DNA of 64,000 nucleotides. It comes from Imbricaverruca yamaguchii. Lineage: Eukaryota > Arthropoda > Thecostraca > Neoverrucidae. The position numbers were made by a program, and so were the translations under genes. Below are positions 22,553-48,300 of the stretch, piece after piece. Position 1 is the first letter of the stretch. Each line of letters starts with the position of its first letter. Location: NCBI GenBank assembly GCA_034440575.1, contig JAOTOL010001455.1, positions 991,001 to 1,055,000 of the forward strand, read 5' to 3'. The notes under the pieces are model-generated. The model was not told where the DNA came from. It saw only the letters and a list, made by a program, of their open reading frames with translations, and made no database searches.

Positions 22553-22930
22553 GGTCCGGTCACTTCCTCTGCTCAGGATACCACCGTCCCTAACAGTCGA
22601 CGTGAACCATTGTGAGTCAGAGTTTGCCCAGTCACTTCCTCTGCTCAGGATACCACCGTCCCTAACAGTCGATGTGTACCATTGTGAGTCAGAGTTTGCC
22701 CAGTCACTTCCTCTGCTCAGGATACCACCGTCCCTAACAGTCGACGTGAACCATTGTGAGTCAGAGTTTGCCCAGTCACTTCCTCTGCTCAGGATACCAC
22801 CGTCCCTAACAGTCGATGTGTACCATTGTGAGTCAGAGTTTGCCCAGTCACTTCCTCTGCTCAGGATACCACCGTCCCTAACAGTCGACGTGAACCATTG
22901 TGAGCCAGAGTGTGTCCAGTCACTTTCTCT
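22553..22930. repeat. 72-bp minisatellite with 144-bp dimer order
   Basis: Five to six units of 72 bp (cacttcctctgctcaggata at 22561, 22633, 22705 and so on). Units alternate strictly between a gacgtgaacc and a gatgtgtacc variant, so the true repeat is a 144-bp dimer. On the minus strand the 24-codon period gives a clean repetitive frame ending in unique sequence (22397-22936). With no splice or homology support I treat it as fortuitous. Confidence 0.92.
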
Positions 22931-24454
22931 GAACATTCCGTAATCCGAATTCGATTCCTTGTGGAAATCCAGTCCAAATTCAAACCTGCCATGGAAACAA
23001 GTCCACTGTCCAGGCTGGGATTATGAGAATGAATCAGGCAAGGGTGTTGATTTCTGAGAGAAAAAAAAATGTTTGGACAAAAAACATGAAGGTAATGGCC
23101 AGCCAGAAATGGTTGGGGGAGGGGCACACTCCATAAGATTCCATGTCAAAGGTTGAAATTATGTGGTGGTGGGGCAAAGCTAACATTCAGGGAACATTTG
23201 CCATTCAACAGTATTAAAACAACGCCCCTTGAACTAGGTACAGAACCGAATCCTAAATGTTGGAATGAGGTTCCATTTTCAGGGCCAGGCTCGGGACCAG
23301 CCCAGCGCCAAATTTGAGAACGACAACCCCACTCGACGTGGCGACGGGTCAAATCCGTAGTTACCTATATTCCGTGCGTCAATTCCGAAGGTACGTCCCT
23401 ACTATCATTACGAAATACCGATGTAAGCTAGATAGTTTTTTTCTGTAGTTAAATATGATGTCATGTTCCATGGTTGTATAATACCTTCATGACAAGATAT
23501 GTATGTTCATCCATGATTAGGACGGGAATGTGCTTCACCATTGGGCGGAGGAGGGGTGGGGGTACTAATGTTTGGACTTATTGCAACCTACTGAGGAGAT
23601 GCAAATATACCCTTAGCACACATTCAGAATAACGAGGAAGCTCATAAAGCTCCTGAGGTGGACGGTGCCGGCAAAATCTCATGTAGATAGATATCCGACT
23701 AATGTTCAGCTAGCGTGCAATACTCGCCGCAAAGTTAGCGAGATCCTTTGAATGGCGCGTGCTCACTGTTAGTGAGCCACATTCCAAGCGTCCCAGCCAT
23801 AGTGATGAACGCGCCGACATTCCGGTGCGCCGGGACTTCCAGTGCGTGGTAGGTAAGCGGATTTGTGTGTTTGGCCTGGTCTGGCCACAATGGGACGCCA
23901 CGAACCGGGAATCTTCTGCCACCAGATGGCAATCCAGGCTACTGTGACGTGAGAGTGAGGAAACTGCTCCCCGCTACCATGGAAGTGTGTGGTGAGGTAT
24001 TGTTCATACTGGCTTTTAAGAGCTTAGCGCGTAATATTCCAGAAGCCATTTAAAGACCTGGGTGTTTGCTGTGATAATTAATCCTGGGGAGCAGGTAGAC
24101 ATTAGTTGCCAGCCAAGGAATCCCCCCAAAAAACAGATGTGGGCAATTTCCATAAAAACTGTCCCTAATGCTAATTAAACACCTCCGTGTGTGTGCGACA
24201 TTTTCGAGGAATGAAGGAGCGTATGTCGGCATGTCAATAAAGCGTAGCACTATTATTTGTTCTTGACAAACATTAAATATACTGATTGGATTCCGATAGG
24301 TGACGATCTTCCACATGATATCTGATTGCCATGCTGTATGGTTAGGGTGGTGACGGTTGTTTGGCTGGAGTTAAAACATGTTGCACATCGGGATGGGCTC
24401 CAGACAGATACCGGGGACGTTATTGTATGTACGTTTAGAGGACACGGTCTCCAG
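22931..24454. other. No recognisable gene
   Basis: Unique sequence with short frames; nothing supported. Confidence 0.45.
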
Positions 24455-29540: not shown

Positions 29541-30208
29541 ATAAATGCAGTATGCGTATAAAGAGGCTGGCGAAAATCCAGTCTGCCCATGCCTACAACT
29601 ATTAGACCATAATGTTATATGTCCGAACTTATTGTGTGACTTCAGGGTATGTGGTTCAGAGACCATTGCATCTCAAATGTGTATGACGGAGCTGGGTCCG
29701 TCGCTCAAGAATACTATGTTTTTGTTTCTGGCGGTCAACGAAAGACGCACTCGGTACATGGTCTCTCGTGGCAAATTAACGTCACGAACATATTTATCAA
29801 CTTTAGCTTTCTTCTTATATGTTGGTTTCCCAAAACTCATCTTATGGCTGAGCCCCTGCACCATTGACACGAACTCATCTTTGCCGTATCATGACGCTAG
29901 ATAAAATTTGTGGCCGGTGGTAGCCACAGGGCTTCGCACGGCTTGAGTGAGGGCTGGTGAGACCTTGGCTGGTACGCGAATACCTCGACTCAAAGAGCTA
30001 CTTGCTGACTGTTGCATTTTGTTCGACTTTAGCAATGGACCACGGGCGGCAGCACGGCACCGCGCTTACGTACCCGACTGGAAACTCACAATGGCTGCCT
30101 CATCAGAGCCGACTGGCAGTCGGACTCCGGCGACAACTGGTCCGCGTGACCACCGCTGTCAGCGGCGGCCAGCCGCAGTTCTCAGTATCGGGCGCCGAGT
30201 TACCTCCT
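29541..30208. other. No clear gene
   Basis: The minus strand at 29870-29400 shows two protein-like frames of about 65 and 88 codons, with a lysine-rich start in the first, but no recognised domain. Confidence 0.4.
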
Positions 30209-31420
30209 CCGCCGGGCGGCGGCTGCACCCTGCCATCGCCGGGCGGAGGTGGCTGCACCCTGACATCGCCGGGCGGCGGCTGCACCCTGCCATTGCCGGG
30301 CGATGGCTGCACCCTGACATCGCCGGGCGGCGGCTGCACCCTGCCATTGCCGGGCGGCGGCTGCACCCTGCCATCGTCGGGCGGTGGCTGTACCCTGCCA
30401 TCGCCGGGCAGCGGCTGCACCCCGCCATCGCCGGGCGGAGGTGGCTGCACCCTTCCATCGCCGGGCGGTGGCTGTACCCTGCCATCGCCGGGCGGTGGCT
30501 GCACCCTGCCATCGCCGGGCGGAGGTGGCTGCACCCTGCCATCGCCGGGCGGTGGCTGCACCCTGCCATCGCCGGGCGGAGGTGGCTGCACCCTGCCATC
30601 GCCGGGCGGAGGTGGCTGCACCCTGCCATCGCCGGGCGGAGGTGGCTGCACCCTGCCATCGCCGGGCGGAGGTGGCTGCACCCTGCCATCGCCGGGCGGA
30701 GGTGGCTGCACCCTGCCATCGCCGGGCGGGTGGCTGCACCCTGCCATCGCCGGGCGGAGGTGGCTGTACCCTGCCATCGCCGGGCGGTGGCTGCACCCTG
30801 CCATCGCCGGGCGGAGGTGGCTGCACCCTGCCATCGCCGGGCGGTGGCTGCACCCTGCCATCGCCGGGCGGAGGTGGCTGCACCCTGCCATCGCCGGGCG
30901 GAGGTGGCTGCACCCTGCCATCGCCGGGCGGGTGGCTGCACCCTGCCATCGCCGGGCGGTGGCTGCACCCTGCCATCGCCGGGCGGAGGTGGCTGCACCC
31001 TGCCATCGCCGGGCGGAGGTGGCTGCACCCTGCCATCGCCGGGCGGAGGTGGCTGCACCCTGCCATCGCCGGGCGGAGGTGGCTGCACCCTGCCATCGCC
31101 GGGCGGTGGCTGCACCCTGCCATCGCCGGGCGGAGGTGGCTGCACCCTGCCATCGCCGGGCGGAGGTGGCTGCACCCTGCCATCGCCGGGCGGAGGTGGC
31201 TGCACCCTGCCATCGTCGGGCGGTGGCTGCACCCTGCCATCGCCGGGCGGTGGCTGCACCCTGCCATCGCCGGGCGGAGGTGGCTGCACCCTGCCATCGC
31301 CGGGCGGAGGTGGCTGCACCCTGCCATCGCCGGGCGGAGGTGGCTGCACCCTGCCATCGCCGGGCGGAGGTGGCTGCACCCTGCCATCGCCGGGCGGTGG
31401 CTGCACCCTGCCATCGCCGG
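30209..31420. repeat. 27/30-bp GC-rich minisatellite, about 43 units
   Basis: The unit ggctgcaccctgccatcgcc continues gggcggt (27 bp) or gggcggaggt (30 bp); a few units are 28 bp. The 28-bp units make the frame jump, so three plus frames and three minus frames are open. It lies about 0.5 kb before exon A of the CD109-like gene. I could not show that its unit comes from an exon. Confidence 0.94.
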
Positions 31421-31667
31421 ACAGACAGTCCGGCTGACGAAGTAGTCATCTGACAGACGCTATGTTGCAGAACAGAGGTCAGTTAGTCATAGTAGTGAGC
31501 CAGAGTGAGGCTAGACGGACTATCACCTACGCTGTCAGCGCAGTCGGATGGTGTCGTCCGGAGGCTGGGTCTGAGACAGGGTCTTGGCAGGCTAGATCAC
31601 ATAACATACATGTACATCAATAAATTGGCTGCCTATTGTGCTTAGAAGGCTGCAACCAGATTTGAAT
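31421..31667. other. Unique stretch before the exon A repeats
   Basis: No gene seen; probably intron of the CD109-like gene. Confidence 0.45.
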
Positions 31668-31920
31668 TAACTGCAAAGTACTCTGATGCATCACCATCAG
31701 GGTGGTGTCGTCCACAGACGATGTCTGGTGCTGTCCTCTGAGTTGGTGAGGTCAGGCACTAAATATCGGGTGTTCTTGTCCAAAGACGATGTCTGATGCT
31801 GGTCTCTGAGTTAGTGATGTCAGGCACCACATATCAGGTGTCCTCGTCCACAGACGATGCCTGATGATGGCCTCTGAGCTAATGTGGCGGAGCGTCACTT
31901 ACCGGGTGTGACCCTCGCTC
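31668..31920 (+). repeat. Diverged 68-bp tandem units resembling the exon A acceptor and exon start
   Basis: Units begin with TCC(A)CAG-type heptamers at 31711, 31779 and 31847 (third base pair CA or AA), spaced exactly 68 bp, with a partial unit before. The real exon A acceptor follows 71 bp after the last. Aligned without gaps, each unit resembles exon A's first ~60 nt at roughly 60% identity by eye, with shared blocks such as TGGTGCTG, CCTC, AGCT, GGCACC and GGTG. I infer old tandem duplications of the acceptor plus exon start that have since decayed. Stops interrupt the coding frame in the copies. The similarity is moderate and needs an alignment score. Confidence 0.55.
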
Positions 31921-31924
31921 ACAG

Positions 31925-32132
31925 ACGGTACATGGTGCTGGCCTCCAAGCTGGTACGGCCGGGCACCATTTTCCGCGTGCTGGCCGTGCTACTGGGCCTG
32001 TCCAGCACAGTGACGTCCGACAGCCTCCAGTACCCGCTGGACGTGCGAGCCTCCGTGTCCAGAGATGGCGTCGAAGTGGCGTCCGCCAAGAAGACGATGA
32101 CCCGCGGCGACATTCAGATGATGATGATGCAG
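31925..32132 (+). CDS. CD109-like / thioester-containing protein, exon A (start of MG1 domain)
   Basis: Internal coding exon of about 69 codons, bounded by an acceptor (ctcacag at 31918-31924) and a donor (CAG|GTACTG at 32132/32133). The product begins RYMVLASKLVRPG and contains VRASVSRDGVEVAS, the pattern at the start of the first macroglobulin domain of CD109 and insect TEP proteins. These are large secreted or GPI-anchored alpha-2-macroglobulin relatives involved in protease trapping and innate immunity. The exon ends in phase 0, and the next exon continues the family pattern directly. The last codons are a run of four ATG and a CAG, an odd Met-rich end where relatives usually have a Leu/Met-Arg stretch. 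The downstream tandem array starts within these codons. The family is fairly certain; the exact member (CD109, TEP or Mcr-like) is not. The thioester motif would lie far downstream and is not in view. Confidence 0.82.
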
Positions 32133-33970
32133 GTACTGGGCCTGGTATTGGCGCGTCACGCCCCAGATGATGATGATGATGATGCAGGTACTGGGCCTGG
32201 TATTGGCGCGTCACGCCCCAGATGATGATGATGATGATGCAGGTACTGGGCCTGGTATTGGCGCGTCACGCCCCAGATGATGATGATGATGATGCAGGTA
32301 CTGGGCCTGGTATTGGCGCGTCACGCCCCAGATGATGATGATGATGATGCAGGTACTGGGCCTGGTATTGGCGCGTCACGCCCCAGATGATGATGATGAT
32401 GATGCAGGTACTGGGCCTGGTATTGGCGCGTCACGCCCCAGATGATGATGATGATGATGCAGGTACTGGGCCTGATATTGGCGCGTCACGCCCCAGATGA
32501 TGATGATGATGATGCAGGTACTGGGCCTGGTATTGGCGCGTCACGCCCCAGATGATGATGATGATGATGCAGGTACTGGGCCTGGTATTGGCGCGTCACG
32601 CCCCAGATGATGATGATGATGATGCAGGTACTGGGCCTGGTATTGGCGCGTCACGCCCCAGATTGGGGGTGATGATGATGATGATGCAGGTACTGGGCCT
32701 GGTATTGGCGCGTCACGCCCCAGATGATGATGATGATGATGCAGGTACTGGGCCTGGTATTGGCGCGTCACGCCCCAGATGATGATGATGATGATGCAGG
32801 TACTGGGCCTGGTATTGGCGCGTCACGCCCCAGATGATGATGATGATGATGCAGGTACTGGGCCTGGTATTGGCGCGTCACGCCCCAGATGATGATGATG
32901 ATGATGCAGGTACTGGGCCTGGTATTGGCGCGTCACGCCCCAGATGATGATGATGATGATGCAGGTACTGGGCCTGGTATTGGCGCGTCACGCCCCAGAT
33001 GATGATGATGATGATGCAGGTACTGGGCCTGGTATTGGCGCGTCACGCCCCAGATGATGATGATGATGATGCAGGTACTGGGCCTGGTGTTGGCGCGTCA
33101 CGCCCCAGATGATGATGATGATGATGCAGGTACTGGGCCTGGTATTGGCGCGTCACGCCCCAGATGATGATGATGATGCAAATACTGGGCCTGGTGTTGG
33201 CGTGTCACGCCCCAGATGATGATGATGATGATGCAGGTACTGGGCCTGGTATTGGCGCGTCACGCCCCAGATGATGATGATGATGATGCAGGTACTGGGC
33301 CTGGTATTGGCGCGTCACGCCCCAGATGATGATGATGATGATGCAGGTACTGGGCCTGGTATTGGCGCGTCACGCCCCAGATGATGATGATGATGATGCA
33401 GGTACTGGGCCTGGTATTGGCGCGTCACGCCCCAGATGATGATGATGATGATGCAGGTACTGGGCCTGGTATTGGCGCGTCACGCCCCAGATGATGATGA
33501 TGATGATGCAGGTATTGGGCCTGGTGTTGGCGCGTCACGCCCCAGATGATAATGATGATGATGCAGGTACTGGGCCTGGTATTGGCGCGTCACGCCCCAG
33601 ATGATGATGATGATGATGCAGGTACTGGGCCTGGTATTGGCGCGTCACGCCCCAGATGATGATGATGATGATGCAGGTACTGGGCCTTGTGTTGGCGTGT
33701 CACGCCCGGTACCGGCATGGTTCAGATGATGATGATGCAGATACTGGGCCTGGTGTTGGCGTGTCACGCCCGGTGCCGGCATGGTTCAGATGATGATGAT
33801 GCAGGTATTGGGCCTTGTGTTGGCGTGTCACGCCCGGTACCGGCATGGTTCAGATGATGATGATGCAGGTATTGGGCCTGGTGTTGGCGTGTCACGCCCG
33901 GTACCGGCATGGTTCAGATGATGATGATGCAGATACTGGGCCTGATATTGGCGCGTCACACCCGGTGCGG
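32116..33970 (+). repeat. 55-bp (then 64-bp) minisatellite carrying the exon A donor site
   Basis: About 28 units of 55 bp are followed by about five 64-bp variants from roughly 33690. Each unit has an (ATG)n run, then CAG|GTACTGGGCCTGGTATTGG and a segment ending gtcacgccccag. The CAG|GTACTG of every unit is the same as the real exon A donor at 32132. The 64-bp units end ttcagatgatgatgatgcag, which also closes exon A, so sequence from the exon edge is found at both ends of the array. The units are nearly identical, which indicates recent expansion or homogenisation. Because 55 is not a multiple of three, the units rotate through the frames and keep short frames open on both strands; those are not genes. 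Confidence 0.92.
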
Positions 33971-34254
33971 CATGGTCCAGTTGTCAGCCCTGTTGAATGT
34001 GATCTGACGCCAAAAATTGACGGTTTAGTTGCAATTTGTATTCGAAGTGTGCAATCCTGCATTGTTTCGTCATGCATGACAACCCGACTCAATTCAAGCC
34101 ATACTTAAATATGCAGGTTTTCAGCATTCAACCCGTGACTGGCCTTTGAAATGATTTGACGTTGTATGTCGGCAACGTTGGCCGTAACAGACTGGCGAAA
34201 GAGCCCAAAAGAGCCCGACGCTGATCTAAGATTTAAGGCTGTTTGACTCGGCAG
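33971..34254 (+). other. End of the A-B intron of the CD109-like gene
   Basis: Unique sequence ending in the exon B acceptor (gtttgactcggcag). Confidence 0.7.
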
Positions 34255-34423
34255 ATCCCGGGCACCTCCACCCCGGGCCAGTACCGGCTGAGGGTGGAGG
34301 GCGACCACCATGGATCGGTCGGCGGCAGCATCTTCGTCAACGAGACGCATCTCGAGTTCGCCCAGCGCTTCCTCACTGTGCTCATCCAGACCAACCGACC
34401 TATCTTCAGCTTCGGGCAGCGGG
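34255..34423 (+). CDS. CD109-like / thioester-containing protein, exon B (MG1-MG2 border)
   Basis: Coding exon of 56 codons plus one base, from acceptor gactcggcag (ending 34254) to donor gtaagt (34424). It starts IPGTSTPGQYRLRVEG and contains GGSIFVNETHLEF and LIQTNRPIF, followed by GQR. These match the conserved end of MG1 and start of MG2 in CD109/TEP proteins, where the usual pattern is PG-Y-LRVEG, VNET-LEF and IQTDKP-Y. Phase 0 at its start matches the end of exon A, and phase 1 at its end matches the start of exon C. There is no stop or frameshift, and this is the best-conserved stretch of the gene here. The exon lies about 2.1 kb after exon A, separated mainly by the 55/64-bp array. 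Confidence 0.87.
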
Positions 34424-34440
34424 GTAAGTGCACAACCAAC

Positions 34441-34645
34441 AGCAGACTAGAAAGAGAGGAAAGAGGAAACTAGAGATAGAGACATAGAGATAAAGAGTTA
34501 GAGATATAAATTATGAGATCGAGACAGAAAAGGATAGATCCATCAAAGTAAGACAGAAGGTAGAGGAAGGGCGAGGGAGAATGAGGGAGACAGAGTAAGA
34601 CAAAGGAAGACCGAAAGAAAGAGAGGAGGCGTCGAAAACGAATAT
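34441..34645. repeat. Purine-rich (GAGA-type) low-complexity tract in intron B
   Basis: Degenerate AGAGA/GATAGAGA repeats follow the exon B donor and keep the plus strand purine-rich for about 200 nt. Confidence 0.75.
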
Positions 34646-35774
34646 AACTGGATTTATATGCAGTTCTACGTTCAGGTCCATCGGATACGTGCCGACTGAG
34701 ATTGCAACCCGTTGCTTTCTCAGCACACTCGCCTTGCAACTTGTGCAAAGCTACCCACATTATAAACCGACGATCATGACTCAATGCGAGATGAGAATTT
34801 GGTCTGCATGCATTCTGGATGAGAAGATTGATGAAAAGCGATGCAGACCTATAAATGTTTCGACTGAGATTGTCGGAATTGCCAGGTCAAACGCACATCA
34901 CTATTCAGTGGTGACTAATCCTGGGGTGGGGGCAACTGGCCACATGTGGCTCCCTGATAAAGATGTGGAGCTCCGACAAGACGCTTCAGTTCATCCCTCA
35001 TTCCGTTCGACGAGTTTTTTTTTGTTAAGCCGATGGTCACATCCGGAAATCTTTTAGCGCAAGTGCCCCAAACCAAAATTCCTGGGCCCGTCCATGCTGT
35101 CGTGATACCCCCTTTCAGGTATTGGTATGTGACATGTTATTCACATGATACTTTTTGGCACATAGGTACATATCAAGAGTCTCGAAGTTTGCACGAGGGC
35201 AATTAGGAAATGTATAGTATTAAAAGCTATTAGGGGGGTCACATGATGCTCATTTGTGGTAATTGCTGCTCCAGGCGTCTGCGTGTCCACGTTGTATGGG
35301 CCTAGGTTCATCACGCGGATGGCTTGTGAACTACGCAGACGTTGCTTGTCATTGGTCAATGAACAGCATGGTGGGTATCGATCAGTTTCGTGCCACTAAG
35401 TCTCGACAACGACCCGGAAGGGGTTGCAAAGTCGCGCTTGGGCGACGGGAAGTGCAAACAGAAGACTATGGTGCACACGATATTGGCTGGAGACTGCCAT
35501 GGTTTCCAGCATGCGATCAGCTCGCATATAGCAGCTGAAGACTGGGGTGCGATGATGTGCTCCTTTGTTCCTCCACTACCACATCGTTAGTACCGATTAT
35601 GCTCTGTTCAGTTCTACTGTAATACGAAAGGCAGCTGTGACGCCAACCGCCCGGCCAGTCCACAATGTTACTATGCCGCTTGGGCGGAGAGTGTGACTGT
35701 GAGTATTTACTGGAAACTGTAAGTGGCACTGAGTGCTGACTGACGGCTATCTGCATACAACCCAGGGGGGGGGG
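34646..35774 (+). other. Remainder of the B-C intron
   Basis: Unique sequence with frames of up to 122 codons (34689-35057) and no recognised domain. 35260-35590 has several overlapping open frames that I cannot assign. Confidence 0.5.
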
Positions 35775-36112
35775 GTGGAGCTCAGGACCGATGTCTGCCC
35801 ACGGTCCAGTTCCGGGTGGCAGTGCTCAGGACCGATGCCTGTCCACAATCCAGTTCCGGGTGGTGATGCTCAGGACCGATGTCTGCCTACAGTCCAGTTC
35901 CAGGTGGTGGTGCTCAGAACCGGTGTCTGTCCACAGTCCAGTTCCGAGTGGTGATGCTCAGGACCGATGTCTGCCTACAGTCCAGTTCCGGGTGGTGGTG
36001 CTCAGAACCGGTGTCTGTCCACAGTCCAGTTCCGAGTGGTGATGCTCAGGACCGATGTCTGCCTACAGTCCAGTTCCGGGTGGTGGTGCTCAGAACCGGT
36101 GTCTGTCCACAG
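35775..36112 (+). repeat. 44-bp minisatellite carrying the exon C acceptor and first 31 nt
   Basis: About eight units of 44 bp run directly into exon C. Each unit contains TCCAGTTCCGGGTGG, then a CTCAG-ACCG block identical or nearly identical to exon C nt 1-31, then a linker such as tgtctgcctacag that forms the next acceptor. Most units keep an AG at the acceptor; the first two have cacgg and cacaat instead. Two linker types, one with gcctacag and one with gtccacag, alternate through much of the array, giving an 88-bp dimer period. The array therefore offers a series of competing 3' splice sites. Three units (132 nt) would keep the frame, while one or two would shift it. Confidence 0.9.
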
Positions 36113-36183
36113 TCCAGTTCCGGGTGGTGATGCTCAGGACCGACCTGAAGCCGTTCGACGACCCGATCGACGTGTATGTTCTG
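36113..36183 (+). CDS. CD109-like / thioester-containing protein, exon C (MG2 domain)
   Basis: A 71-nt exon between acceptor tgtccacag (ending 36112) and donor gtgagt (36184). With the single base carried from exon B it reads VQFRVVMLRTDLKPFDDPIDVY, then VL. This fits the second strand of MG2 in CD109/TEP proteins, where a V-FR pattern is followed by a DP-DVY motif. The phase fit and the fit to the family pattern are both exact. The first 31 nt of the exon, together with its acceptor, are repeated upstream as the 44-bp array, so the real acceptor is the last of a row of near-identical sites. It was chosen because only this copy runs on into KPFDDP. I could not find the next exon in the remaining 28 kb, which is filled with TEs and satellites. 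Confidence 0.82.
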
Positions 36184-37118
36184 GTGAGTCGCAGAGGTCG
36201 CAGGTGGCTCAACCGCATTTAGTCGCCGTGAAGTTCACAACACGTGTGCGTACACTTCCACATGTATTGACTGCTACCACGCATCGTATTTCTTTCACTT
36301 GTGCTCATGCAGACTAGTACTTTCATAAGCTCACCGAAGGGGGCTGAATTCGCCATTCCCTCCTGCTTTTTCTACAATATCTCACCAATTATAGCGGATA
36401 TATTGCAATAGTATCGATGACCTGGTAAGAAATTTACCATCACATTCTATGCACAATGCACCATTTTAAAATCTGTTGGTAAATATAGGAAGGGCAGGGG
36501 TGCAAAGTGCACTGACCGGCCGGCGACCGCAAAACGTTCAAGGTCACAAAGGTTTCGTTGGTGCAGTAGCGCAATGGTGGCAAATCTCGACCTCATTTGA
36601 TTATGAAGACATTGGCAGAGTGTCATAAAATTGATTTTTAAGCGAGGACTCTACAGACGTAAACCACCCGCCAAATTGTATGCTTCTAGCTCGAGTCGTT
36701 TCCGAGATCTTAGTTGGGGAGCCGAATCCCCCATCCGGTGCGCATTATGTGAAAGACTCCGGCGCGATTGTTAAGTTTGGGTTCGACCACTCGATAGGCC
36801 ATGGGGTTTGACAACTTGTTGAAATGGAACCATGAGTGAATTGCACCGTTTTGTTTCTGTTCAGCGCCATAGTTGTCTAGTTACGTGGTTGACACGTCTT
36901 TTCGAGTGTTCAGGGGAGGCATGCAAAACCATCAAAGACGAAGGGTGCACGACCTAAACAGCTCGACAGGGAGCTGTCCTGAGCCGCCTGAGAACTACAC
37001 CAAAGCCACCACCACGGTACCATTTCCTGGAGTAAAAACAATTCGCGATGTCTTACATCCAAAGCTGTGTTGCACATCCGAACCGAAAGCCCACCTCTCT
37101 CGGACTCTTGACCCTGAT
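36184..37118. other. Downstream of exon C; no further exon recognised
   Basis: Starts with the exon C donor gtgagt. Scanning for the next CD109/TEP pattern gave nothing. Confidence 0.5.
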
Positions 37119-38976: not shown

Positions 38977-40397
38977 CTAGACGGCGTTTCCTCCATTTCT
39001 TGCCGCGCCTGGTGATGCAGCCGCACCTGCTGACCCAGCTGCGCATGTTGGCCTCCGCCAGGCATCTCGTCCCCCTGGGTCCAACAGGGTCGGCGTCTGC
39101 TCCCTTGAGACAGTCTCAGCTTCGGGCCTCTGATGCTTCTCGCACCCTCTGCTGCTGCTTCCGGTACTTCTCGTAAGTTGATCGGCGTACACTGTAGTAC
39201 AGTCATCGAGCACGAAGCTCGCCGGTCCGCACCGCTCTAAGACTCTCCTCGGCCGCGAGAACCTCAACCACCCTTTACGTGCCTGTGGCGGGAGACGGTG
39301 TCGTACGGCGTCCCCCACGGCGAAGTCGGGAACCTTCACACGATGTGTGCGGTCGAAGTAGGCCCTCTGACGAGCTTGTCTCTGCGACACACGGTCCCGC
39401 AGGTCAGTCGGCTTCAGTCGTAGTCGCCCTTCGACGTTCACCGCCGCGCTGAGCTTGTTGCGCATCGGACGTCCGTACAGCAGCTCGGCTGGGCTGCGAC
39501 CAGTGGTTGTTTGGATCGTGCTCCTGTAGGACAGCAGAAACAGCTGGAGATAATGAGAATGGCCAACCTTCTCCAGATCTACTGTTTGGAGTGTTGCCTT
39601 GACCGTCTTGTTCACCCGCTCCACCTGGCCCGATGACTGCGGATGATAAGGCGACACTTTTATGTGAGCGACCCCCACACTTCGCAGGTACGAGGCGAAT
39701 CATTCAGACGTGAAAGCAGATCCACAACTTGACACTATTTCTTTCGGGTAACCTTCTCGACACGCGGACTTCTCAGTGAACTGCACGACCACGTCAGATG
39801 TCGGGTGCTCACAAAACCCAACCTCAATCCATGCCAAAAAGAAGTCGATGCCAACGATGGGAAATATCTGTCCATGGCGACCACATGCTATGGGAGCGAT
39901 GAAATCAAGCTCCAGCTTAGGCCATGGCTCGACCAGCAGTGGGACGGGCTGCAGAAGCGCATGCCTAGGCACCGCCGTCTTGTCTGCCACCGAACATATC
40001 CTCCAGCCTGGATATTCCGCACCACTGCCTGATCCACACCAGGCCATCAGTACAGTTCACGCAGTCTCTGTTTGGTGCGAACTATACCCTGATACCCCTC
40101 GTGAGCTAGTTCTGCCAGTCGTGTCTGTAGATCTGCTGGAACCAGAACCCGGCCACCGCGCAGGACGACGTCGTTCCTCATAGTCAGCTCGTCTCTGGAG
40201 CGCCAAAACTGTTGTAGTTCCAGCATACACACACGATAGTGTCCGGGCCACGGATGAGGAATCCGATGTCTCAGCTTCCCGAGACCAGGGTCCACCTGTG
40301 ACGCTGTCTTCAACTTCGTGCCGCTCACAGCTGCTCGCTCCCTCGTGAGCATAGCTACGACCAGCTGGTCCTCGTCTGTCGCCTCCTGCACTGGCAC
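38977..40397 (-). pseudogene. Gypsy zinc-binding linker and integrase, broken
   Basis: The linker (40397-40048) contains LAELAHEGYQGIVRTKQRL, like the HHCC arm before integrase. A stop and a frame change lie near 40047. The integrase core (40047-39700) reads WPKLELDFIAPI with the first catalytic Asp. The second Asp is lost: the usual SDNG-x-F-TSE box reads SSCGSAFTSE. One in-frame stop lies near 39698. After it, HPQSSGQVERVNKT carries the catalytic Glu, and RSTIQTTTGRSPAELLYGR and a basic C-terminus follow to 38977. The loss of the Asp and the stops make it inactive. Confidence 0.82.
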
Positions 40398-40559
40398 TGG
40401 GAGCTGAGAAAACCCATCTGCCGTGTTGAGGTTTCCCTTGACGTACTACACCGTGAAGGAGTACTCGATCAATCAATCAATCGACACACCCAGCGACAAA
40501 TACGCATCCCCGCCCTGCCAATTCCTCGCGACGTCATCATAGTCTTAAGCGACTGGCGA

Positions 40560-40880
40560 TCTGCGCTCAGGAAAACTTGCTGCCCCACATATACCCGTGC
40601 CACTTCTCAATTGACCAAACACAGGCCAACGCCTATTTCTCTCAGTGACGCTGTAGCGACGCTGAGCCTCAGACAACGTACTGCATGCAAACGCCACCAC
40701 TTGCTCGCCATCGGGATGCAGCTGCGTGAGCACTGTTCCAATGCCCACGTCACTGGCGTCTGATGTCACAGCTGTGGGCGGAGTTCGATGGCATCTGCTC
40801 AGCTGACGGCATTGCTGAGTCGTGACGCCTCCCCCGAACAACCACTGTCGGTCCACCGCTCGATCCTCAGCAAGCGCTAT
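40560..40880 (-). pseudogene. Gypsy RNase H domain, broken
   Basis: The pattern PPTAVTSDASDVGIGTVLTQ (about 40795-40730), then VVAFACSTLSEAQRRYSVTE, is the start of a gypsy RNase H with its first catalytic Asp and Glu. The frame breaks soon after TERN, and the rest of the domain is not readable. Confidence 0.75.
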
Positions 40881-41170
40881 GGACTCAGACGATGCAGAGT
40901 TGGGTGGTCCTCCACACACAGGCGATCACGGAGATAATTATAAACACATGCCTCTACAAACTGGTCCCATATCATGTCATCTTCCAAGGCTCCAAATGCA
41001 CATAACTTGCTCTGCTCCCCTTAAGTTTGTCAAAAACGTGGCGACGGATTCATCAACCGTCAGACGACACCTACGGAACATGACCCGCTCAAACATGACG
41101 TCTTCGGGCTTTTCAAACAGTGATGAAGCAATGAAAGGCATTCTCTCATCGTATTGCCCTCCGACTTAAC
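40880..41170 (-). pseudogene. gag remnant of the gypsy element
   Basis: The minus strand reads MPFIASSLFEKPEDVMFE, then a DESVATFLTNL stretch. After a frame change near 41010 it has a GALEDDMIWDQFVEACV-like segment followed by LRDRLCVEDHPTLHRL. This is the typical end of a gypsy capsid region, just before where the CCHC knuckle should be. The knuckle, protease and most of the reverse transcriptase are missing; the RNase H region follows directly. Confidence 0.65.
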
Positions 41171-43852: not shown

Positions 43853-44942
43853 TGTGAAAAAAAAAACTAAAAAAGACACCGACCCCAGCTCGCCAGCGGA
43901 CTCAGAATCGGAATTTCCCCGCTGACGACGTCTGCTGACCATCGCTCGACTCCAGACTCGGCCCCTGATGCTCCACCACTGGATACAACTGTTGATGACC
44001 AACGCTGAACAATTCCCCTTGACGACGCCATGGAAGCCCTTTGCGCTTCACCGACCCCTGCCCGTCCAAAGACCACGACCTCGTCCCTTAATTTGGACCA
44101 GACCATCACTCTCCACGCCGTCGACCCATGCTTGAACCAGACCACGCCTTCTCCACCTGAACCCATCGAACCCATCGAGCCCTACCTCGTTTGTGCTGGC
44201 TCGTACATAGTCGTTAAGCCTGTAGAGGGATCCGTTTCCTTTCGTCGTGCCAATGTTTTCTGGCCGACTAAACAACTCCTTGCCACCTGCTCCTTAATCA
44301 ATCCCGATATTGAATCCCCAACCAACAGAACCCTAGTCATCAAAATCCAATCCGGAGTCCAGACCAAAGCCCTCCTCCGTTCCACATTATGTGGAAAATT
44401 CGTTACCATCACTTTCCATTCGGACCGCAATACCAACAAGGGCACCGTCTTCGCGCCGGAGCTCCGCTTCATGTCTGAGGCAAACATTCAGGCCGAGCTC
44501 AGGCCGGATGGGGTGACCCACGTCCGCCGCATAACTTCCTTTAAAGACGACCAGAAACGTGACACGAGCCTCCTTGTCCTTTAATTATGCCACTCTTCCC
44601 AATACCCTCCTCGCCGGATGCCTACGCTTCCAAGCCCGAGCCCTTATACCCAATTATCGCCGCTGTTTTAACTGTCAGCGCTTTGGCCATGGCAGCAAAA
44701 CATGCCGCCAACCAGCCCCATACCCCAAATGCGGTGATGCACCTTATCCCGAATCCACCTTCTCCAAACCTCCCCACTGCCTTAACTGTCACACTTCCGA
44801 TCATCTGACTACATCACCCCTTTGTCCAGTTTGGCGCAAGGAGAAGGAGGTCTGCGCTGTAAAGGCAACGACCGGAGTTTCGTATCCCCAAGCCCGACGG
44901 TCTGCCGAAGCCACATCCTCGTCAACCAAGACTTATGCCTAG
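43853..44942 (+). pseudogene. LINE ORF1, gag-like with CCHC zinc knuckles
   Basis: An RNA-binding ORF1 protein. The longest intact block, 44030-44584, holds the N-terminal and middle parts (VRRITSFKDDQKRD near its end). A one-base shift near 44575 moves the frame to a block running to 44942. That block carries RCFNCQRFGHGSKTCR (C-x2-C-x4-H-x4-C) and, further on, HCLNCHTSDH...CP, the typical knuckles of I/Jockey ORF1. The sequence upstream of 44030 stays protein-like back to about 43853, with one stop (near 44007). Confidence 0.8.
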
Positions 44943-45394
44943 GCGACAACCGTTGCTCCCGCCACACGTTGCGTCAACACTACTTCTACATTGATTCAAA
45001 CTCACATGATTTCCGGTTCAGCTCCACTAAAAACTCACACCACTGACCACACCGACACAAAACACCTTCAGTGCCAACACCCAGACCACTCTGGCTTCCA
45101 ACAAGCGTACCACTCCAGGCAGAAGTGACAGGCCTCGCAGTCATTCGGCTAAGGGAGACAATTATCGTTCCCCGTCAGCGGGCCATCGGTCGAGCCCTGC
45201 GCGTCCAGCGCCGGCCGGCGCCCACGTGATCCGACCGACTCCCAGCCGACGGGCATCGCCCGCGGCACTGACCGTCCTCTGTGACCTTTCCAAGGCCACT
45301 GGTCGGCCAGACGGATCGGCCGGGTCCACCTCGGCCGTCCACACCCAACCCACATGACCGCCTCAGCTGCAATCATGGCTGGGCTATGCACCGA

Positions 45395-48300
45395 AAGGTG
45401 CTGACAAACATTAATTTTCCTCTATCATGTCCGTATGTTTACAATGAAATTGCTGCAGCTTGATCTCCAAATGGACCGAAATGAAATCATTCTTTAGTTT
45501 ACTCATTCCAATTATCATTGCGCTTCAGGAAACTTGGTTCTTACTGACCGATGCATATCATTTCAATTATTCGGTGTACTTTTAACTATCTTTCCAAATA
45601 TTCACTGTACCGTCACGACGAGGTCCGTGGACCACACCGCGGTGGCGGTACAACACTTCACATAAGCAACGGTTACATACACACAAATTACACTTATTTC
45701 ACCTTTACAAGCCGCAGCTTGTACATTACGTTTGCGTGGTAGGGATATAGATGTATGTTCTATTTATATTCCACCACACACAGACAACACAAATATTTTA
45801 GCACACATAGAGAACCTTATAGCAAATTTCAGGTATCATTCATATTACTCGGAGACTTTAATGCACATAGCTCAGCCTGGGATCAACTACGTACACATGG
45901 AGACAATCGCGGCCGCGTCATCGAACAAATCTGAGACCGACACAATTTAATACTACTCAATGCCGGACAACCAACTTTTTTACCTTGGACATAATTCCGA
46001 AACAGCTATTGATTTATCAATATGCTCTCTGACCACAGCCAATGATTTTGACTGGACCATTGACACCGACATTCATGACAGCGACCACTACCCCATCAAA
46101 TTAACACACACACATTTCAACTGCGACCGATACCACACCCAAGTTCCGTCGCTGGAAAATTTCGAAGGCCGATTGGACAATATTTCAACAACTTTCACGT
46201 ATGTCATGTAACTCCAACATATCTGCCGTCAAAAACATTAACGAAATTACAAAAACACTTATCGAATCAGCATCTACTACAATTCAGCTCACAAAACCTT
46301 TTGCAAAACGAACGCCAATACCTTGGTGGACTCCCGAAATAGTACGTGCCATTGCTGTAAGAAAACGAGCAATTAGGAAATGCCTAAGACACCCTGATCA
46401 ACAAAACTTAATTATGCGCCACCATGAACGAGCGAGGACACGCCGCTCTTATCAGCGAGGCTGCGCGTCATTCATGGTCCGAATATTTAAAACAGCTCAC
46501 CTTTCGAACATCAATTACCCAAATCTGGAAATTAATCCTCCGATTGTCCGAACGCATTCGAATCATTTCCAGCCCTCAAAATCCAAAACATCACCATTAC
46601 AGAACCAATAGCAGAAGTAAAGAAAATTGCGGACACCATGGCTCCAAGTAGCTCGGATAACAATTACAGACCCGAATTATTGCATCATGCACAATCCATT
46701 TTTTCGCACTAATTTAGCACAATTCCATTCTGCCAACACTGAAACATACAATGTTCAATTTCAGATTTCAGAACTAGAGACAGCCATTTCCTCCGCCGGC
46801 AATACATCCGTAGGGCCCGGCCATTTGCATTATTCATTTTTCAGACATTTACCTGAGACATTTACCCACACCAAACATTGCATTTTGCACACATTTAATG
46901 CACTATGGACGACACACGCTTTCCCCGAAACTTGGACAGAATCTTTTGTTATGCGCATCCTGAAACCTGGCAAGGATCGCAGTAACCCCACTCATTTTCG
47001 ACCCATTTCACTCACCAGTTGTTTAGAAAACATTTTGAACGCATGACAATCAAAAGACTTACTTGGCACTTCAAAACAAATTCCCTTCTATCTTCATTTC
47101 AATGTGGTTTTCGCCGTGGACGTATTACAATAGATCACCTTATTCGGCTTGAAACAGACATCCGCCTAGGTTACAAAAAAAAAACATGAATACACAGTCG
47201 CAGTATTTTTAGGCAAGCTTACGATATGGTTTTCAAACCAGCATTACTTTTCAAAATTCAGCACCTCGGTATAAAAGGACATTTAGCTCATTATTTAGCA
47301 GGTATTGATCCGGTACTCGTCCATTCCACATCAGTTGCCAGTCAGCCATCTCTGATCAACATACTCTGCAAAATGGACTACTACAGGGAAGGTGCATTTC
47401 ACCAGTTTTATTCAACCTCATCATTGGCGACCTTTTCACTGACATGCCTATAAATATATCACGCTGTATATTTGCCGATGACAGCGCAATTTTGTGTTCA
47501 ATAAAAAAATACGAGCATCGTTTGTTTCACCTCCAAAACGCACTAAGCAAAATATATCGATTGTCTCTAAAGAATGGTTTCATTTTTCCGCTATAAAATA
47601 TGCAGCGATGATACTTAGTAAATCATTTCCCCGCGGAAATCAAGAAATAACGCTTCACTTCGGAAACAATGACATACCTTTTGTAAGGTTCATTTAAATT
47701 TCTTGGGGATTATTTTTTACCGTAGGCTTTCAATGCATAAACACATCAAACATGTTCGGAACAAATGTTTTCACCGACTCAATTTATTTCAATACATAAC
47801 GTCTTCAGCATTTGGAGCCGACCGTCATACAGTTCTACTACTTTACAAATCTTTAGTTCTACCCATAATTGAGTATGGATTCATAGTATATGCCGGTGCC
47901 AGCACATCCTCCTTACACATTTTAGCACCATTCAAAATACATTTACTCGTATCGCACTCGCCGCAATGACAACATCAACCATCATCTCTTTAGAAGCAGA
48001 ATCGGAAATTCCTCCACTAGCTCTCCGTATAATGCAACACACATTTAGGCACGTCTCCAAAATTAAATTTCAGGCAAATCACCTCACACACGCTTTAATA
48101 CAAGTCCTCCCAAATATACATCATGATTATTTAGTCCCATCCGAAAAACGAACTGGTCTCACTATAGCTTCTCGAATCAAAACATTTTCTGAACAACTGC
48201 ATTCACTATTCCACCCATTATTTTTCTTTTTACACCAACTACACCACCGTGGCAAATAGTAGGACATATTTTTTAGTTAACCACCACTCCAAAATCAAAG

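Follow-up and report, generated by a model that had tools for sequence, protein, structure and literature searches.

The closest described relatives of the arrays reported here are the mirages of amphioxus, minisatellite-like tandem copies that run over an exon-intron boundary. They are known from Adh3 and the globin genes BflGb6 and BflGb9 (PMC3087553) and, in further examples, from TnC and PGBD5 (PMC3902484). In both papers, mirages are reported to leave splicing undisturbed, the mRNA being normal, and those of the globin and Adh3 genes to be unstable in length (PMC3087553, PMC3902484). Here we analyze a stretch of 64,000 nucleotides (nt) from the thecostracan Imbricaverruca yamaguchii (assembly GCA_034440575.1, contig JAOTOL010001455.1, positions 991,001 to 1,055,000 of the forward strand; hereafter, the window), in which three minisatellites with units of 68, 55/64 and 44 base pairs (bp) touch exon borders of one CD109/TEP-like gene of an immune type.

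Related phenomena have been described in other settings. In human genes within segmental duplications, internal tandem repeats at exon-intron boundaries are ascribed to minisatellite expansion; they make paralogs differ in exon or intron structure and may give rise to novel introns (PMC2812944). Intron gain by tandem genomic duplication has also been proposed (PMC4974935; the Rogers model as presented in PMC3087553).

Three arrays contain copies of exon edges

The CD109/TEP-like gene lies on the + strand, and its exons A, B and C, which fall into the window, yield 149 stop-free codons when joined. In phmmer searches of PDB, the product of exons A-C matched the start of CD109 (5e-8) and of TEP1 (3e-7), and in Pfam the exon C region matched the start of the MG2 domain (6e-7, 30.1 bits, slightly under the cut-off of 32.8). 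The arrays and exons are the following:

31708..31911, + strand: 68-bp array, three diverged copies of about 68 bp, each with the intron end, AG and the first ~57 nt of exon A
31925-32132, + strand: exon A of the CD109/TEP-like gene, 208 bp, placed by reading frame and PDB homology
32111..33980, + strand: 55/64-bp array including its exon part; units hold the last 16-20 nt of exon A, the donor and 39-44 nt of intron
34255-34423, + strand: exon B, an open frame joined to A and C, with an array at neither border
35780..36144, + strand: 44-bp array; units hold 12 nt of intron end with AG and the first 32 nt of exon C, which is the last copy
36113-36183, + strand: exon C, start of the MG2 domain, placed by frame and PDB/Pfam matches; no array at the 3' border

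Tandem Repeats Finder placed the limits of the arrays at 31708-31909 (68 bp), 32117-33980 (55/64 bp) and 35780-36143 (44/88 bp).

Alignments confirmed that the arrays touch the 5' border of exon A, its 3' border and the 5' border of exon C, and that each carries the splice site together with exon sequence, as the original prediction had proposed. The 68-bp copies start at 31708, 31776 and 31844, and exon A itself forms the fourth (to ~31981); in the exon A frame, the three copies read RCLVLSSELVRSGTKYRVF, RCLMLVSELVMSGTTYQVS and RCLMMASELMWRSVTYRV, the last followed by a stop. When the first 57 nt of exon A were compared with the whole window on both strands, the best three non-self matches were these three copies (38, 37 and 34 of 57 positions; background mean 14.2, standard deviation 3.4). 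The last 20 nt of exon A recur together with the intron start, all 20 exon nt being the same in the 64-bp unit and 16 of 16 in the 55-bp unit, and the first 32 nt of exon C are identical at 31 positions to the copy at 35849. Across 66 unit-edge pairs, the scores of units against exon edges were 62 (44 bp), 40 (64 bp), 32 (55 bp) and 28 (first 68-bp copy), and none of them was matched by any of 300 dinucleotide shuffles; the second and third 68-bp copies scored just 17 and 20 in the same comparison, values reached by 9 and 4 of 300 shuffles.

The 55/64-bp row offers a donor 33 times, counting the real one at 32132; 28 spacings of 52-62 bp are followed, at the far end, by four of 64 bp. In this row 22 of the 33 units are identical and those at the far end differ, and a homogenised interior is clear for this array alone. 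The 64-bp unit retains the four ATG of the exon, whereas the 55-bp unit has six ATG and about 15 intronic nt fewer. By eye, the 55-bp units contain possible micro-exons of 21 nt (CAG/ATG..CAG/GT), which would be separated by gaps of just 34 nt. Units of the 44-bp array follow a two-unit order of 88 bp that includes the exon C copy.

Further arrays and repeats were noted around these exons. A GC-rich 30-bp array of about 42 copies lies directly upstream of the 68-bp array (30210-31420); in the unit-edge comparison it showed no resemblance to the edges of exons A-C. A five-copy 72-bp array (22559-22931) has two open frames and resembles exon B (GAGTTYGCCCAG.. / EFAQ); its unit scores 28 against this exon, the best of 3620 window tiles, this being one of the 66 unit-edge pairs. 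The intron of about 39 kb between exon C and the next exon, D, holds remains of a Gypsy-like polyprotein (38977-40900, - strand) and those of a zinc-knuckle gag of LINE-like type (43900-46200, + strand), both named by eye.

The exon edges precede the arrays

The exon parts of the arrays encode residues conserved in CD109 and TEP1, and comparison at the sequence level identifies the exon edge as the source and the arrays as its derivatives. Exon A ends in MMMM followed by Q in the window gene, by R in P0003 and by K in P0007, and in MLMMK in P0008; because this type of ending is common to these relatives, the end of exon A is judged to be older than the 55/64-bp array. All three 68-bp copies have a Tyr codon where exon A of the window encodes Phe, and P0003, P0007 and P0008 also have Tyr at this position; thus, the copies preserve an older state of exon A. 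Beyond the end of exon A, the related protein P0007 reads MMMMKVRRQSDDDDNKVRKSD, which, seen in the protein only, looks as though this donor region had been duplicated into two copies.

A separate public contig provides a further view of the 5' edge. In the ENA protein P0010, the 5' edge of exon A is encoded at least four times. A single DNA repeat, read in a second frame, accounts for 26 of 26 codons, and for 25 of 26 in another copy (maximum of 9 in 5000 shuffles), and part of a further copy is found in the third frame. A related protein, P0009, carries an intact exon A. P0010 fits no place in this genome at which exon A was identified and therefore may come from another species. Its copies and the 68-bp units of the window depart from the exon at almost one and the same codon (YRVL), so the exon A 5' array may be old and common to the window gene and the P0010 contig.

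Comparison with described systems

The window arrays share several features with mirages as these are described in the amphioxus reports: (i) position at 5' or 3' borders with units of ~10-160 bp, (ii) units that hold exon, splice site and intron, here with ~57, 16-20 and 32 exon nt, (iii) retention of AG or GT in many but not all units, here GT in 29 of the 32 copied donors and AG in five of the seven copied acceptors of exon C and in all three of exon A, and (iv) a homogenised interior with a diverged boundary, seen in the 55/64-bp row. Judged by these structural features, the arrays are junction-spanning minisatellites of the mirage kind, so that the earlier statement that no family of junction-seeded satellites had been described does not hold. 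They differ from amphioxus mirages in being found in an arthropod rather than a lancelet, in affecting 6 of 26 borders in one gene and in forming one row of 33 donor positions.

In contrast to the human boundary repeats, the intron in the window pre-existed and the protein frame is unchanged. The intron-gain model and the window arrays have in common the tandem duplication of sequence with splice signals; however, no new intron is seen here, and the A/B intron is found at the same codon in the C1224 paralog, which makes it older than the array. This shared position, together with the gap-free alignment of P0004 and P0006, speaks against intron gain by tandem duplication.

An introner-like dispersed element was also considered and rejected: in a genome search that skips simple or very common repeats, 16 of 17 matches to the 3' part of exon A and the units lay at the locus, and the remaining one was exon A of the C1224 paralog, matched in its exon part only.

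Splice sites and reading frame

Splice sites were scored with a simple weight matrix. Among the 33 donors of the 55/64-bp row, the real one included, 27 read CAGGTACTG, three read CAGGTATTG and three lack GT, leaving GT at 30 of the 33 positions; 26 of the 32 copies are identical to the real donor. The latter is weak, with a score of 4.1 compared with 9.4 for exon B and 10.4 for exon C. At exon C, AG is kept at six of eight acceptors including the real one, all with one score. The three acceptor copies of exon A score 1.5, 3.1 and 6.0, against 4.1 for the real site.

Splicing was simulated in silico with donors one to eight and with the full set of eight exon C acceptors; an unbroken correct frame came from the exon-proximal site alone. 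For all donors from the third onward, a stop at 32223 falls inside the exon. Of the copied exon A acceptors, two throw the reading frame off, and the third, though in frame, runs into a stop at 31794. P0004 and P0006 align without gaps over the A/B junction made with the exon-proximal donor. Since only exon-proximal sites keep the frame, in-frame variants are not expected and the true site is not hidden, contrary to what had been proposed; splice variation from array sites may occur, yet would in each case shift the frame or run into a stop. The 68-bp copies were rejected as alternative exons: they are partial relative to the 208-bp exon A, and two of the three shift the frame while the third reaches the stop.

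Border, intron and exon rates

Arrays with a period of at least 10 cover 21.5% of the window and 57% of positions 30000-36500. With a tolerance of 20 bp, three of the six borders of exons A-C touch an array, and with none, two of six do. The 66-bp array that reaches the acceptor of exon E has hardly any exon nt in common with it and was left out of the border count. In 22% of circular shifts, at least three of six borders lay in an array or within 20 bp of one.

For a broader comparison, ten further exons (D-M) were placed on the adjoining stretch of the contig, giving 13 exons and 26 borders. Exons D, E, H, K and L were based on weak tblastn matches (E 0.001 to 3.5) to a human CD109 query, exon M on two weak matches (E 3-10) to the same query, and exons F, G, I and J on frame, GC content at third codon positions (GC3) and GT/AG alone; the 5' border of exon H is uncertain. 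A border was counted as having a near-copy if 18 exon and 10 intron nt recurred within 2 kb on the intron side with at least 21 of 28 positions identical. Near-copies were found for six of the 26 borders (A5, A3, C5, J3, L5 and L3). L5 is the weakest: there the closest copy, which shares 16 of 21 exon nt, belongs to a 34-bp array located 1.4 kb upstream, and a 38-bp array adjoining the latter has, by eye, about ten exon nt in common.

Random intronic positions had near-copies in 27.2% of 4000 cases, and positions 60-400 nt from exons in 28.0% (n=3000); at a threshold of 22 of 28, the figures were 26.5% for introns and 5 of 26 for borders. The binomial P of at least six borders at the intronic rate is 0.75. 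Inside exons, 40 nt or more from any border, none of 534 positions had a near-copy. Because the border rate is about that of introns and the rate in exon interiors is zero, borders are not preferred over introns, interiors are free of arrays, and array growth stops at the exon. The view that three arrays in one gene are hard to explain by chance was therefore not upheld, although two narrower tests considered below lean the opposite way. What stands of the original prediction is local tandem duplication at exon edges that gives rise to rows of near-identical donors or acceptors; what was not supported is a preference for borders beyond chance.

Recurrence in paralogs and other genes

Arrays that match borders were found beyond exons A-C of the window gene. 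Besides J3, L3 and the weak L5, the C1387 paralog has a 53-bp array of ~29 copies (75% match overall), whose units contain the terminal ~34 nt of exon A together with a GTCAGT donor. In the C1224 paralog, a 63-bp array starts at the exon A donor, which is of the GC type; this array lacks exon nt and by eye is unlike that of the window. The donor reads AAG/GCAAGT (L009 4896), and a downstream array copy has, by eye, GTAAGT at this place. At two other related places, C1352 and C1424, exon A was not identified.

Myosin genes were sampled at 15 of the top 21 among 72 myosin-head places, the first (apparently intronless) and five with an internal stop being left out. One of 30 exon ends (1 of 15 exons) has a junction array, at L059, with a 32-bp unit comprising ~21 exon nt and GTGAGT. 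At four more ends an array stops no more than 40 bp away from the matched stretch, or reaches into it by less than 10 bp, with no clear exon sequence. Some short myosin exons stand in open frames of 490-1080 amino acids (e.g., C1376:1866589, C1171:291249, C1307:921267 and C1082:452662), perhaps owing to adjoining stop-free repeats. At three such places we noted a 42-bp array beside the acceptor (L072), a short CACCCCGT repeat seen by eye (L061) and nothing notable (L066).

The P450 genes are single-exon and unsuited to a survey of splice sites, and only their coding ends were used. Among 30 loci examined, one gene (L031, 2827-3086) has a two-copy repeat over the stop codon, that is, a repeat at a coding edge with no splice site, and another (L032) has a repeat near the end of the frame. 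The repeat at the stop codon indicates that splice signals are not required.

Origin and persistence of the arrays

We consider it likely that minisatellites form here without regard to position, persist where one intact exon edge remains and are a harmless by-product of a repeat-rich genome. A tandem duplication with breakpoints in an exon and in the adjoining intron would copy the splice junction. The copy beside the exon body would still give the right protein, which would make the change nearly neutral, and the copies on the intron side could then expand, homogenise and decay through slippage or unequal exchange. Duplication would be blind to exons, with those in exon interiors purged and arrays stopping at the edges, because one intact copy has to stay. 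For the window arrays we infer a duplication mechanism, near-neutrality and normal splicing.

The main competitor is that exon borders are preferred seeds, with splice signals, R-loops or nucleosome edges attracting tandem duplication. Several results weigh in that direction or otherwise against our interpretation. Just 2.0% of circular shifts touched three distinct arrays, and of the 52 array edges three fall inside the 448 exon nt compared with 0.36 expected (Poisson P 0.006), the array ends in this test having been extended by the analyst to the limit of exon likeness. We read both figures as exons stopping the arrays, though a border bias may also underlie them. The exon A donor has an array in all three genes in which exon A was found (the window gene, C1387 and C1224), with intron sequences unrelated by eye, and may be a hot spot. 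The placement of exons D-M, on which the 26-border comparison depends, rests on weak matches or on frame, GC3 and GT/AG; the myosin sample, which was confined to exon ends, gave just 1 of 30; and arrays cover just 5.2% of the P450 flanks, so that density varies across the genome. Against preferred seeding, however, stand the near-copy rate of borders, which does not exceed that of introns, and the edge repeat at the P450 stop codon, and we regard it as quite unlikely.

A role in splicing, by which rows of weak sites would be kept as redundant sites or as noise lowering expression, would fit the exon C acceptor copies that score as the real one (5 of 7) and the donor copies that equal the weak real donor (26 of 32). 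It seems very improbable to us, since no alternative site of A or C keeps the frame and since normal mRNA is reported in the mirage papers (PMC3087553, PMC3902484). Tandem arrays are prone to misassembly, but an assembly artefact is extremely improbable here: the differences between units are ordered, with the 64-bp type at the far end, the 55-bp type inside and the 88-bp two-unit order at exon C, and the separate public contig of P0010 encodes an array at the same 5' edge of exon A.

A bolder extension of position-blind formation is that arrays occupy a sizeable share of exon edges, that some perhaps predate a species split (if P0010 belongs to another species) and that units persist only if their length cannot be divided by three. 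None of the eight arrays with exon sequence (68, 55/64, 44, 32, 38, 73, 53 and 32 bp; window 31708-36144, L013, L014, L028 and L059) has a unit divisible by three, compared with 10 of 21 other window arrays. The hypergeometric probability is 0.018, or 0.026 with two short arrays added (10 of 23), in a post hoc contrast with hand-picked periods. We hold this extension to be rather unlikely; if it were true, selection would retain those mirages for which wrong use disrupts the frame and ends in degradation, and they would form a spare reservoir of splice sites for border shifts and new introns.

Implications

The host assembly comprises 767 Mb in 1430 contigs, and Pfam Chitin_bind_4 scored above the cut-off in 150 of 150 scored candidates (of 340); this is a cuticle-protein family typical of arthropods, so the genome looks like that of an arthropod. 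No mirage from a crustacean or other arthropod was reported in the literature searched, a coverage outside which most subscription journals lie. An arthropod genome with several mirages per gene offers a natural experiment, densely replicated, on how the splicing machinery selects one of several near-identical sites lying side by side, and on whether duplications of this kind contribute to the evolution of introns and exon edges. Where such arrays occur, genome annotation may misplace exon ends.

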